A stretch of 64,000 bases of DNA from Anaerolineae bacterium (GTDB lineage: Bacteria > Chloroflexota > Anaerolineae > Promineifilales > Promineifilaceae), in NCBI GenBank assembly GCA_019637635.1, contig JAHBVI010000001.1, positions 1 to 64,000 of the forward strand. The letters run 5' to 3'. Positions 16,313-22,076 of this stretch are shown one piece after another. The first letter of the stretch is position 1; every line of letters starts with the position of its first letter. The translations under genes were made by a program, and so were the position numbers. The notes below the pieces were generated by a model. It was not told where the DNA came from. It did not search any database and worked only from the letters and a program-made list of their open reading frames with translations.

Positions 16313-17446
16313 ATGAACAAAAAACCCTTTGTTTTGATAATTAGCTCATTATTATTTGCCCTGATGCTAACCGCCTGTGGCGGCAGCACCCAAACCGTGG
16401 AAGTTACCCGTGAAGTGGAAGTCACCCGCATTGTGGAAGTGGCAGCGGAAGCCGCCCCCTCACAACCGGTAGCCGTTACTTTTGCCGAGGGCGGCGCTAC
16501 CCTCAAGCAAGTGCAAGATCGCGGCGTGTTGAAATGTGGGGGCAACCAGAATGTACCCGGCTTCGGCTATCTGGACCCGGCCAGTGGTGATTTTACCGGC
16601 TTTGATATTGATTTCTGCCATGCGATTGCTGCGGCCGTTTTAGGTGATGCCAGCAAAATTGAAGTGACCCCCACCACCGGTGACAGTCGCTTTCCCACTC
16701 TGCAATCCGGCGAAGTGGATGTGTTGATCCGCAACACTACCTGGACATTCAGCCGGGATACGGCGCTGGGTTTTGATTTCACCCCCACCACCTTCTATGA
16801 TGGGCAGGGCATGATGGTACGCCGCGACAGCGGCATCGAAACGTTGGAAGACCTGCGCGGCGGTACCGTCTGTGTGCAATCCGGTACCACCACAGAAAAG
16901 AACCTGGCTCAATACTTTGATGGTATTGGCGTGCGCATTGAGATTCTGGTGTATGAAGATGCCGTAGCCACCCGCGAGGCGTATGACAGCGGCGCCTGCG
17001 ATGGTTTCACCACCGACAAGTCTGGTCTGGTTTCCCAGCAAATTTTGCTGGCTGACCCGAACGCCCACCAGATTTTGGTGGAAGATATGTCCCGCGAACC
17101 GTTGGGGCCGTTGACCCGGCATGGCGATAATAACTGGAATGATATTGTCTCCTGGGTTGTCTACTGCACCATCAACGCCGAATTCCTGGGCGTGAACCAG
17201 GCAAATGTGGACAGTATGCTGGGCGGTGATGACCCGGTGGTGGCCGATTTGTTAGGCGAAACAGGCGATCTGGGCCAAAACTTTGGGCTTGCCAATGATT
17301 GGTGTTACCAGGTGATCAAGCAGGTGGGTAACTATGAAGATATCTACATGCGCAACCTGGGTCCCAGCACACCATTTGACCTGCCCCGTGGGCTGAATGC
17401 GCTCTATACGGACGGCGGTATTCTGTATCCGATTCCGTACAAGTAA
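16313..17446 (+). CDS. aapJ: General amino-acid ABC transporter substrate-binding lipoprotein
   Basis: A 377-residue lipoprotein: hydrophobic signal ending in LTACGG (lipobox Cys about residue 22), a short linker of E-V-T-R repeats, then an SBP_bac_3 domain (GYLDPASGDFTGFDIDFC, VLIRNTTWTFSRD, VCVQSGTTTEKN). It matches AapJ/BztA, which bind polar L-amino acids. The ATG follows GGAGGAGAAAC. The permease and ATPase genes follow in the order J-Q-M-P. A strong hairpin at 17461-17494 directly after the stop could make this gene more expressed than the permeases, as is usual for binding proteins. Confidence 0.93.
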   Translation: MNKKPFVLIISSLLFALMLTACGGSTQTVEVTREVEVTRIVEVAAEAAPSQPVAVTFAEGGATLKQVQDRGVLKCGGNQNVPGFGYLDPASGDFTGFDIDFCHAIAAAVLGDASKIEVTPTTGDSRFPTLQSGEVDVLIRNTTWTFSRDTALGFDFTPTTFYDGQGMMVRRDSGIETLEDLRGGTVCVQSGTTTEKNLAQYFDGIGVRIEILVYEDAVATREAYDSGACDGFTTDKSGLVSQQILLADPNAHQILVEDMSREPLGPLTRHGDNNWNDIVSWVVYCTINAEFLGVNQANVDSMLGGDDPVVADLLGETGDLGQNFGLANDWCYQVIKQVGNYEDIYMRNLGPSTPFDLPRGLNALYTDGGILYPIPYK

Positions 17447-17494: not shown

Positions 17495-17514
17495 CATTTG
17501 TTTAGGGAGTGGGT

Positions 17515-19166
17515 ATGTCAGAATCAAGCCACCGCCCGCCCTCATCAACGTATACAACCCACGAGCGCATACCGTTTTGGCGCGACGGCCGTGTCCTGGG
17601 TGTATTGGCGCAGATCCTCTTTGTCATTGTGGTGGGGTCCGTCATTTACTGGTTCATCAGCAATGTGGCCGCCAACCTGAGCCGCTTAGGTGACTCCCAG
17701 TTTGTCTGTCTCTATGGCACCACCGAACAATGGTCATATCGCTGCGCCTTTGACTATTTGTCTTCTGAAGCCCAATTCGACATCTCCGAATCGGTCATCC
17801 CCTATCGAACCAGCGATTCTTACTGGCAGGCCATCCGGGTGGGGCTGCTCAACACCGTCAAAGTCTCTTTTATCGGTATTATTTTAGCCACAATTCTGGG
17901 TACCCTCACCGGCATCGCCCGCCTCTCTCAAAACTGGTTAGTTCGCAACATTGCCAAAACCTACATAGACATCATTCGCAACACACCCCTGTTGTTGCAG
18001 CTCTTTTTTCTCTATTTTGTGGTACTGCTGTTGGAACTGCCGGCGGTGGGTGCGGCGCTGCAACCATTTGGGCTGCCCATTTACATCAGCCAACGGGGCA
18101 TCAACTTTCCCAAAGTTGTTACCCTTAGCTCTTTTGCCATCTGGTTTGCATTTATTGTCCTGGCCCTGATTCAGGCGCAATTTTTGTGGATGTACCTGGG
18201 GGCGCGTGAAGAGAAGACCGGCAAAACCAGCAGCCGGTTGTTTTGGTGCATCTTTTCCTTTTTCGTCGTGGTGGGCCTGGGCTGGCTGGTGGCCAGCAGC
18301 ACGGCTCACAACGAAGGGTTCCTGGTGGCCAGAGCTGCCCGTGTGCGTGAATTTTCTGACCTGGAATCGCTGATGGAGCGCCGGCTGCGGCTGGATAATA
18401 TCCGGTTGTTGGATGAGTATGTGGAAAGGGGCCGCCTGAGCGCCGATGATGTGGCGGCATCGGCGCTGCTGGTGTGCAGCGTACAAGATTCACCTTCAGA
18501 GGTAAACCTGACGGCGCAATTGCGGGCGGCGGGTATTCCTTACAAGGTGAACCGTTTTGCCCGGCCAGACCAGGCCATTGATGCCTATGCAGAGGAGGCG
18601 ACGTGTGATGTTTTGGTGGCGCCCAAAGCAACGCTGGCGGCGGAGCGCAATCTTTTGGAAGACAGCGCCAACCATATGATTGTGCCGGTGCGGGAAACGC
18701 CGGCCCGTTGGGCTGTTCCGGCGCTGGAAGGGTTCAATTTTGTGGGCGGCAGCCGTATGTCGCTGGAATTTACGGCGCTGCTGGTGGGGTTGGTGGTGTA
18801 TACGGCCGCGTTTATTGCCGAGATTGTGCGCGCCGGTATCCTCTCGGTGGGCAAGGGGCAAAGCGAAGCGGCGCGGGCGTTGGGCCTCTCGGAAGGGCAG
18901 CGGCTGCGGCTGATTGTGCTGCCCCAGGCGCTGCGCGTCATCATTCCGCCGCTCACCAGCCAATGACCTGAACCTGACCAAAAATTCCAGCCTGGCGCTG
19001 GCGGTATTATCCCGATTTGTGGCGGGTGATGAGCATTATCGGCAACCAGTCTGGCCGTTCCATTCAACCCATTATTCTGACGGCATTGACCTACCTGACC
19101 TTTAGCATCGTCATCTCCTTGTTCCTGAACTGGTACAACAAGCGGATTCAGTTGGTGGAGAGATAA
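17515..19166 (+). pseudogene. aapQ: Amino-acid ABC permease AapQ, frameshifted near its 3' end
   Basis: ATG at 17515 with AGGGAG before it. The frame stays open to a stop at 18964, but the homologous C-terminus continues in two other frames. An apparent extra base near 18962 and two missing bases near 19006 break the end; after repair the protein would run through YPDLWRVMSIIGNQSG to the stop at 19164-19166, about 550 residues. It has membrane helices near residues 30-52, 110-135, 155-180, 205-228, 245-262 and 420-440, and an EAARALGL loop that contacts the ATPase. A roughly 140-residue periplasmic insertion lies at 262-405. The frameshifts may be assembly errors or real decay. Confidence 0.85.
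18454..18694 (+). other. Binding-protein-like segment inside AapQ
   Basis: Residues about 316-396 of AapQ (LLVCSVQDSPSEVNLTAQL, then DVLVAPKATLAAERNLL) can be aligned by eye with AapJ (GTVCVQSGTTTEKNLAQYF, then DGFTTDKSGLVSQQILL). The order of hydrophobic strands and the Ala-Tyr/Cys-Asp spacing agree. It sits in the loop between two membrane helices on the outer face. AapQ proteins of proteobacteria are about 400 residues and lack such a domain as far as I know. Confidence 0.6.
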
Positions 19167-19218
19167 TGCGTGATGCGTGATGCGTGACCCCATGTCTCAC
19201 GCATCACGCATCACGCAT
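19166..19218. repeat. Perfect inverted repeat of the GCGTGAT word
   Basis: Three copies of ATGCGTG at 19166-19187 are exactly complementary to 19197-19218 (22-bp stem, 9-nt loop). It fills the gap between aapQ and aapM, beginning at the last base of the aapQ stop codon. Confidence 0.85.
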
Positions 19219-19228
19219 CACAAAAAAC

Positions 19229-21238
19229 ATGGCTACCACATCCAAACCAAGAACAGTAACACGCCTTCCCCACATTCACTTCAATTGGGGCCAATGGGTG
19301 AGTGACCATATTACCCGAAGCTGGCTGCTGGCTTTGTGGCTGCTGCTGCTCACGGTAATTACGGTGCGGTTTACGCTCTCGCGGCTGGAAGCGACGCCGG
19401 TGACAACGATTGTGGTGTTGGTGGTCTGGGCGGTCAGCGTGGCGATCACGGTGTATGCGGAGCTGATTCACCGGCACACGGCCGTGACCCTCTGGCTGCG
19501 TAACAATCTCTACAACTCCCTCACCAATGTCCAACTAACGCTCATTCTGGCTCTGGCCATTCTGGCCATCATCTTTGGCCTGTTTAACTATGCCGTCACC
19601 ACCGCCAGCTTCCTGACGGTGCCGACCACCAATCTGCGGGCGGAAGCGGCCCCTGCCATTGGTGACAACTTCTGTTTCCGCATTGGAGCGCAAGATGCGG
19701 AAAGCGGCGGGGTGGTGAATGGGGACCCAACCTGTTTCCCGCGCTGGGCGTTTGTGCCCGAACTGTCGGAAACAAACATTAACGAGACGCCATTGGGCGT
19801 GGCCGCCGCCGCTTTTTGTTTTGATACACTCAGGGATGATGAGGAAAACGGCCGTACCTGCTTCACCAGCACCGCCGAAAATCCTGCCCTCTATGCCGTC
19901 TCCATCCAGTTCAGCGGCGCCAACTGGGGCGCCGTCTGGGCCAACCTGACCAACATGATGGTCTTCCGCTATAACCGCGCTGAATTGTGGCGGGTGTGGT
20001 TGTCTGCGGCCTTTGGCCTCCTGTTAGCTCTGGCCAGCTTTGTGGTCTATCGTGATGGCTTCCAGCACAAACGCATCCGCCGTGCCCTCACCTACCTCTG
20101 GCTGGCCTCCCCCATCATCTTTTACGTGCTGCTCGCCGGGGTACGACCGGTGACGGTTAATGAGTTCGTCAGCGAAGCCCTGCCCCTGGTGGGCATGGTT
20201 GTGCTGGCGGCGCTGCTGTGGTGGGCCAACCGCTACCTCAACCGCACCTACCCACCTGGTATTGGTGAATCAGAATGGGCGCGGCTCGGCCGTATTTTGC
20301 TGACCCTCACCGCCGGTATCTTTGCCTTCCTGGCCTTTTTCAGCGTCATCGAACTGATCTTTCTCTTTTTTGGCCTGTTCAAAACAGGCGAGAAGCCGCT
20401 CCTTGTGCCGGTGAACCCGGACGTGGACTGGGGCGGGTTTATGCTGACGCTCATCATCACCGCTTTTGCCATTGTTGTTTCCTTTCCGTTGGGTGTATTG
20501 CTGGCGCTGGGGCGGCGCAGCACCATTCGCGGCATTCCCAACTGGGTCACATATCCGGTCGCCTTTGCCATTATGATTTGGGGATTGCTCAACAGCACCC
20601 CCGAACTGCGTGCGACGGCCCGTAACAACTTTGAACTATTACTGGCTTACTGGCCGTTGGCATTGCCCTTCATCGCCTATGTTTTTCAGCGAGTATGGAA
20701 AGGGAACGTGGTCGCCGGTTTTTGCACCCTGTACATTGAATTTATTCGCGGCATCCCCCTCATTACCGTTCTCTTCCTCTCCATTATCCTGTTTCCCATT
20801 TTCCTGCCGCCGGGCATGGAATTCTTGAAAACGTGGCGGGTGATGTGGGCCTTTGCCTTCTTCTCGGCAGCGTACATGGCAGAAAATGTGCGCGGTGGTT
20901 TGCAGGCCATTCCCAGAGGCCAGTACGAAGCGGCCGATTCACTTGGCCTGGGCACATTTAGCAAGTACCGGTTAATCATTTTGCCGCAAGCCTTACGCGC
21001 CGTGATCCCGGCCATTACCGGCCAATACATTGGCCTGTTTAAGGACACGACGTTGGTTGCCATTGTCGGCTTGCTGGATATTTTGGGGGTTGCCAACTCC
21101 ATCGCTTCCCAACCCCAATGGTTGGGTGTACGCCGCGAAGCATATTTGTTCATCGCCCTCCTCTACTTCGTTGTTTCGGCCATCATCGTTAGCTATTCTG
21201 AACGGCTGGAACGGCAAACGGGGTTGGGGGAGCGGTAA
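19229..21238 (+). CDS. aapM: Amino-acid ABC permease AapM
   Basis: About 669 residues from ATG at 19229 (MATTSKPRTV); an upstream start at 19184 would lie in the repeat and is unlikely. The C-terminal third is the permease core, with helices and the coupling loop QYEAADSLGLGTFSKYRLI, followed by the conserved GQYIGLFKDTTLVAIVGL. The N-terminal part has extra helices and a Cys-containing periplasmic loop (about residues 130-235). It is longer than proteobacterial AapM/BztC (about 385-430 residues). It pairs with AapQ to form the membrane channel for amino acids delivered by AapJ. Confidence 0.92.
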   Translation: MATTSKPRTVTRLPHIHFNWGQWVSDHITRSWLLALWLLLLTVITVRFTLSRLEATPVTTIVVLVVWAVSVAITVYAELIHRHTAVTLWLRNNLYNSLTNVQLTLILALAILAIIFGLFNYAVTTASFLTVPTTNLRAEAAPAIGDNFCFRIGAQDAESGGVVNGDPTCFPRWAFVPELSETNINETPLGVAAAAFCFDTLRDDEENGRTCFTSTAENPALYAVSIQFSGANWGAVWANLTNMMVFRYNRAELWRVWLSAAFGLLLALASFVVYRDGFQHKRIRRALTYLWLASPIIFYVLLAGVRPVTVNEFVSEALPLVGMVVLAALLWWANRYLNRTYPPGIGESEWARLGRILLTLTAGIFAFLAFFSVIELIFLFFGLFKTGEKPLLVPVNPDVDWGGFMLTLIITAFAIVVSFPLGVLLALGRRSTIRGIPNWVTYPVAFAIMIWGLLNSTPELRATARNNFELLLAYWPLALPFIAYVFQRVWKGNVVAGFCTLYIEFIRGIPLITVLFLSIILFPIFLPPGMEFLKTWRVMWAFAFFSAAYMAENVRGGLQAIPRGQYEAADSLGLGTFSKYRLIILPQALRAVIPAITGQYIGLFKDTTLVAIVGLLDILGVANSIASQPQWLGVRREAYLFIALLYFVVSAIIVSYSERLERQTGLGER

Positions 21239-21299: not shown

Positions 21300-22076
21300 A
21301 TGACCACCTCAAAACCAATCACCACACGGCGGTTATTGGGAGAATACATCATTGAATGTGAGAATGTGCATAAGTGGTATGGCGATTTTCATGCACTGAA
21401 GGGGATTGATTTGCAGGTGAAGTCGGGTGAGGTGATTGTGATTATTGGCCCGTCTGGCAGTGGCAAATCTACCTTCATACGCTGCCTGAACCGGCTGGAA
21501 GAACACCAGGAAGGGGAGATTGTGGTAGATGGTATTACGCTGAGTTATGATGTGCGTAACATCGCCGAAATCCGGCGCGAAGTGGGCATGGTATTCCAGC
21601 AGTTTAATCTGTTTCCTCACCTGACGGTGCTGGAAAATGTGACCTTAGCGCCGATTCATGTGCGCAAATGGTCGCGGGATAGGGCCGAAGAGACGGCGAT
21701 GAAGTGGCTGCTGCGGGTAGGCATTCCCGAACAGGCCAACAAATATCCGGGGCAGCTTTCCGGGGGGCAGCAGCAGCGGGTGGCCATTGCCCGCACGCTG
21801 ACGATGGAGCCGAAGATTTTGCTTTTTGATGAACCAACCAGCGCTTTAGACCCGGAAATGATTAAAGAGGTTCTGGATGTGATGCGCGATCTGGCCGGTG
21901 GTGGGTATACCATTTTGGCGGTGACGCATGAGATGGGTTTTGCCCGTGAGGTGGCGGATCGCGTCATTTTTATGGATGCGGGGCAGATTGTGGAAGAAAA
22001 TATCCCCGAAAACTTCTTCAGCAACCCCAAAAACGAACGGACAAAACTTTTCCTCTCTCAGATTTTGCACCATTAA
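21300..22076 (+). CDS. aapP: Amino-acid ABC transporter ATP-binding protein
   Basis: A 258-residue ATPase with Walker [10 protein letters not shown], signature [10 protein letters not shown], Walker [13 protein letters not shown] and the H-loop VTHEMGFA. It powers the AapJQM uptake system from the cytoplasmic side. The ATG is preceded by AAGGAGAAACT. All motifs and the family length (about 245-260) are complete. It is the last gene of the operon and converges on the presumed anti-sigma gene, with a 32-bp palindrome between the two. Confidence 0.95.

Follow-up and report, generated by a model that had tools for sequence, protein, structure and literature searches.

The permease gene aapQ in the 64-kb window analysed here (the window being the whole stretch of DNA under study) encodes, between two membrane helices, a domain that derives from lobe 2 of an AapJ-type amino-acid-binding protein and that purifying selection maintains within a single Chloroflexota family, the Promineifilaceae. 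Lobe 2 was transplanted into the outer loop of AapQ with limits near both hinges of the binding protein.

The insert and its genomic setting

The plus strand of the window, on which all features described below are located, carries an aapJ-aapQ-aapM-aapP operon specifying an amino-acid importer, and the nearest relatives of this locus in the public record are MAGs labelled Chloroflexi or Anaerolineae. The first gene, aapJ (16313..17446; SBP_bac_3 1e-16, 4z9n 2.8e-91), encodes an intact lipoprotein-type amino-acid-binding protein of 377 aa; the AapQ insert is homologous to its lobe 2 (approximately residues 162-268). The permease ORF aapQ (17509..18966; 485 aa as it stands) matches BPD_transp_1 and HEQRo_perm_3TM (PF00528, 1.2e-14; TIGR01726, 5.8e-21), and its core, its EAA region and the aapJQMP operon, also seen in relatives, identify the product as a PAAT permease. 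It is followed by aapM (19184..21238), encoding an expanded partner permease of 684 aa in which no binding-protein-like part was found, and by the importer ATPase gene aapP (21300..22076; ABC_tran 2e-39).

Profiles and fold searches place the insert at AapQ residues 264-404 (18298..18720), in agreement with the coordinates of the first-pass annotation (18295-18725, residues 263-405). An alignment of ~80 AapQ sequences, some 40 of them insert-bearing, combined with hydropathy for the helices, defines it as a clean insertion of ~120-150 residues flanked by a hydrophobic helix at ~240-267 and a helix starting at ~417, immediately ahead of the helix running to the cytoplasmic EAA loop. The basic residues REEKTGKTSSR precede the first of these helices and the cytoplasmic EAA region follows the second; by the positive-inside rule and the conventions of the permease family, the insert would lie outside the membrane, which bears out the outward-facing loop proposed earlier.

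The insert was found in ~40 genomes from some 19 genera of the GTDB family to which the window belongs. In the AapQ proteins examined from other Chloroflexota families and from Proteobacteria no insert is present and helix runs straight to helix; therefore, the earlier claim that proteobacterial AapQ lacks this part holds for those aligned, and among the AapQ examined the insert is confined to the host family. A non-exhaustive contig scan, mostly with patterns lying outside the insert, retrieved insert-bearing loci that were all labelled Chloroflexi or Anaerolineae. Within the same GTDB family, genomes G014 and G032 (loci L092 and L093), both of one genus, encode AapQ without insert, either as an older form or as an acquired one.

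Compared with three close relatives, aapQ of the window has a G added at 18965, which creates a TGA stop, and lacks two bases after 19006, so that its last ~68 codons are out of frame and continue in other frames to ~19165; aapQ genes of the relatives have intact open frames of 553-571 codons. The simplest reading is a sequencing or assembly error, because the gene is otherwise conserved and both indels fall within ~41 bases; its decay is a conceivable alternative. Both changes are downstream of the insert, which is unaffected, and annotation of the gene as read would yield a truncated AapQ without its last helix.

Other peculiarities of the locus were also observed. The first outer loop of AapQ (residues ~60-95; 17690-17790) has a small two-cysteine stretch, QFVCLYGTTEQWSYRC, which proteobacterial AapQ apparently lacks, and the gap between aapQ and aapM (19164-19225) contains short GCGTGATGCGTGA-type repeats plus inverted copies. 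AapM of this GTDB family is 500-750 aa long versus ~400 elsewhere, with additional N-terminal hydrophobic segments and, between LALGRRS and CTLYIEFIRG, where other AapM have a short loop, a hydrophobic stretch of ~60 residues. Some AapM proteins, those of the window's genus plus a few relatives (L035, L036), have at residues ~140-250 (19600-19960) an outer insert with several cysteines, for which hhalign against the AapJ profile revealed no likeness to a binding protein.

Homology of the insert to lobe 2 of AapJ

A profile of 38 inserts aligned to AapJ profiles in hhalign with probabilities of 98.2-98.8, scores of 95-112 and E-values from 3.6e-14 to 8e-17. Of 100 column-shuffled profiles compared with the same AapJ profile, none scored above 22.9 (probability 3); the reversed insert profile scored 10, the AapQ core 21.5 and AapM 13-18. 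A blind search of 177,635 PDB sequences with a 10-insert profile returned one significant match, the Brucella AapJ-type protein 4z9n (E 1.8e-5). Chance resemblance can be rejected given the low scores of shuffled and reversed profiles and a PDB match to 4z9n only. Across a set of 400 Chloroflexota genomes, a 10-insert profile detected nothing but AapJ-sized genes outside the host family; all seven of these loci that were opened encode AapJ, followed in six by an AapQ frame that the insert profile did not match. As single sequences, none of ten inserts, that of the window included, matched Pfam SBP_bac_3 at E up to 10, which makes the insert a diverged homologue rather than a Pfam-recognised member of the family. 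Thus, the proposed resemblance to SBP_bac_3 stands at the level of family profiles and structure, and fails for the single window sequence against Pfam.

The AlphaFold2 model of the insert, obtained from ten sequences, has a pLDDT of 82 overall and of about 90 over residues 11 to 130, and displays the strand-helix alternation of the beta/alpha lobe fold. Foldseek with this model ranked 4z9n first (E 1.4e-5), and VIA-align gave a Z of 13.8 to the same structure (100 residues, rmsd 2.2) and of 14.1-14.6 to glutamate/aspartate-binding proteins (14.5 over 96 residues for 2ia4). The matched fold is lobe 2 of family-3 amino-acid-binding proteins, with model residues 6-139 fitting one lobe only. In a full-length AapQ model of a relative (L031, trimmed protein) the domain is positioned between helices 229-250 and 405-431. 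Other folds mimicking lobe 2 (YfiR/HmsC, uL10, class II fructose bisphosphatase) yielded weak matches only. Hence, the loop is confidently predicted to be folded, and neither of the outcomes named by the first-pass annotation as speaking against its proposal, an unstructured loop or the absence of a significant profile match, was observed.

That annotation had placed the AapJ-like stretch at residues 316-396; homology to the second lobe is confirmed, the limits are not, since the match spans ~267 to ~404. It starts with HNEGFLV (~267), corresponding to DGQGMMV of AapJ, and ends with ETPARWAVP, corresponding to SREPLGPLTR. These limits indicate that the whole of lobe 2 is present, between both hinge crossings, which in this fold would lie at the ends of the insert. 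Within the lobe, profile alignment and the helices of the model delimit a helical addition of ~33 residues (residues 287-318; 18367..18462), which every insert has, in about a third of cases ~6 residues shorter, and which no AapJ shares.

Residues, selection and origin

Residue conservation was counted by profile alignment of 38 inserts with 73 AapJ. Two cysteines are invariant in both groups, Cys323 (18475..18477; AapJ Cys187) and Cys366 (18604..18606; AapJ Cys229), and are probably joined by a disulfide bond. The insert glutamate E331 (36/38) and asparagine N333 (37/38) are retained from AapJ E195 and N197, and P344, R349 and E396 are invariant among inserts. The ligand-contacting positions are mostly changed. 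In GlnBP, K115, G119, S120 and D157 touch the ligand (PMC7400645), and equivalence to AapJ was established by hhalign with a GlnBP sequence in which R75, G119 and D157 occur at the expected numbers. The AapJ ligand loop GTTTE is replaced in the window by DSPSE (residues 327-331; 18487..18501), GTTT becoming mostly D-S-P/A-S among inserts: T193, present in 72 of the 73 AapJ, has a P or A counterpart in 31/38, and S occupies the T194 position in 29/38. Pro372 (18622..18624) stands in place of AapJ Asp235, equivalent to GlnBP Asp157 (PMC7400645); this aspartate is found in 73/73 AapJ and retained in 3/38 inserts. Taken with the loss of ligand binding in the GlnPQ single mutants SBD2(D417F) and SBD1(E184W) (PMC8025302), the lost contact positions suggest that the lobe has probably ceased to bind amino acids. 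On the other hand, inserts share conserved residues of their own, which points to a surface that has probably taken on another use.

Between close relatives, dN/dS is 0.07-0.24 for the insert and 0.02-0.10 for the N-terminal core of AapQ, the insert being the faster-evolving part. Inserts form one group on a long stem, with 42% identity among themselves and about 23% to any AapJ: 23.5% to AapJ of the same locus, 24.7% to that of other Chloroflexota and 21.7% to proteobacterial AapJ. The insert sits on a very long branch, and the source may have been either AapJ of the same operon or another AapJ. The AapQ core tree groups the insert-bearing proteins in one clade with low support (0.27), and it is likely, from these sequence comparisons, that they have a single origin.

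Possible roles in transport and relation to known systems

The first-pass annotation had proposed that a permease with this lobe could capture substrate directly, either alone or, as can be added, with AapJ lending its lobe 1 for the insert to close on. The insert is a genuine AapJ lobe 2 with its fold intact, and in GlnBP simulations the small domain can by itself accommodate ligand, in metastable states of lower affinity (PMC7400645). However, most copies no longer have the equivalents of GlnBP D157 and G119, with Pro a frequent replacement; the GlnPQ single mutants SBD2(D417F) and SBD1(E184W) have lost binding; and hhalign revealed nothing AapJ-like in the core of AapQ or in AapM that could complete a two-lobe cleft. 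The idea that AapM carries the missing lobe 1 was considered in its own right and gained no support, whether from the family profile or from the insert at genus level (probability 0.2). With AapJ still encoded upstream, direct capture of substrate is very improbable, and a docking or gating piece is more likely than a second receptor. Upstream of insert-bearing aapQ, AapJ is present except where the contig ends; the insert is therefore an addition to AapJ, not a substitute for it. Related Aap systems lack the insert, so transport as such does not depend on it.

We tentatively favour, with a confidence just short of even, a lobe that is no longer a receptor and that helps AapJ to dock, stay captured or open. 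The MalF P2 loop, working with the maltose-binding protein, serves as the model for such a role. The insert would form a rigid unit on the permease's outer side, engaging AapJ, most likely through its lobe 1 or in its open form, or packing on the AapQ/AapM vestibule, and it would thereby help AapJ to dock, to remain captured or to be kept open while ligand is released; contact with AapJ is itself a guess. Homology, fold, position and topology of the insert, the retention of AapJ in the same operon and purifying selection all favour this assistance to AapJ, and a conserved surface of its own with ligand contacts lost is what would be expected of an interaction surface, although the sequence of the insert changes more rapidly than that of the remaining AapQ and now lies far from any present AapJ (about 23% identity). 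It is possible, though unlikely, that the permease captured a lobe of its own binding protein that now acts as a permanent part of the transport cycle, e.g. by swapping in against lobe 1 of AapJ, upon which AapJ would open and release ligand into the channel. The structural mimicry of one AapJ lobe on the outer side of the permease would also suit a regulatory part, in which the insert competes for the docking face of AapJ or covers the resting vestibule and keeps the ATPase off until loaded AapJ arrives. Loss of ligand contacts would fit such a decoy, and in type I importers the low basal ATPase activity rises when the loaded binding protein docks (PMC7170509), but we regard regulation as rather unlikely. 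The faster evolution of the insert and its absence from close systems could alternatively denote a duplicated aapJ lobe tolerated in a permissive loop as folded filler without specific role; this is improbable, since the domain persists across some 19 genera (about 40 genomes), with invariant C, P, R and E positions and dN/dS well below 1.

Our preferred reading of a lobe assisting AapJ can be set against several known systems. The best sequence match and first Foldseek match of the insert, 4z9n, shares with it and with AapJ lobe 2 (SBP_bac_3, PF00497) the fold, the hinge-to-hinge segment and the two cysteines; the insert differs in being one of two lobes, housed in a permease, with ligand residues replaced and an extra 33-residue helical piece. 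AapQ of Proteobacteria and other Chloroflexota has the same permease core and aapJ-Q-M-P operon, without a domain at this loop. Ionotropic glutamate receptors and GluR0 also place a lobe of an amino-acid-binding domain between membrane helices, with both lobes there and ligand bound, and the fold search also returned the GluR0 ligand core (Z 11.0); the insert, in contrast, has only lobe 2 and no channel. CmpC/NrtC likewise reuse a binding-protein-like domain within an importer subunit, namely a complete, ligand-sensing regulatory domain on the ATPase; the structure of the CmpBCD regulatory domain, 9uai, is another of the fold matches. MalF P2 is not known to derive from the binding protein, whereas the insert is binding-protein-derived. 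Both are large folded inserts of a permease; that of MalF is periplasmic and contacts the binding protein, according to PMC3150292 and its references, and MalF P2 is reported to interact with MalE throughout the cycle (Daus et al. 2009, as cited there).

Whole binding proteins fused to importers are already known. In GlnPQ and OpuA, complete two-lobe ligand-binding domains are linked to the permease. A binding-protein domain covalently part of the permease is common to these systems (PMC8025302, PMC11065425) and to ours, which differs in having a lone, probably ligand-dead lobe between two helices while a separate AapJ remains. Such a lobe, running from hinge to hinge between permease helices beside an intact binding protein, was not found in the open-access papers searched. 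The insert illustrates how permeases can acquire a domain contacting their binding protein, and constitutes a natural test of the share of each binding-protein lobe in docking and release.
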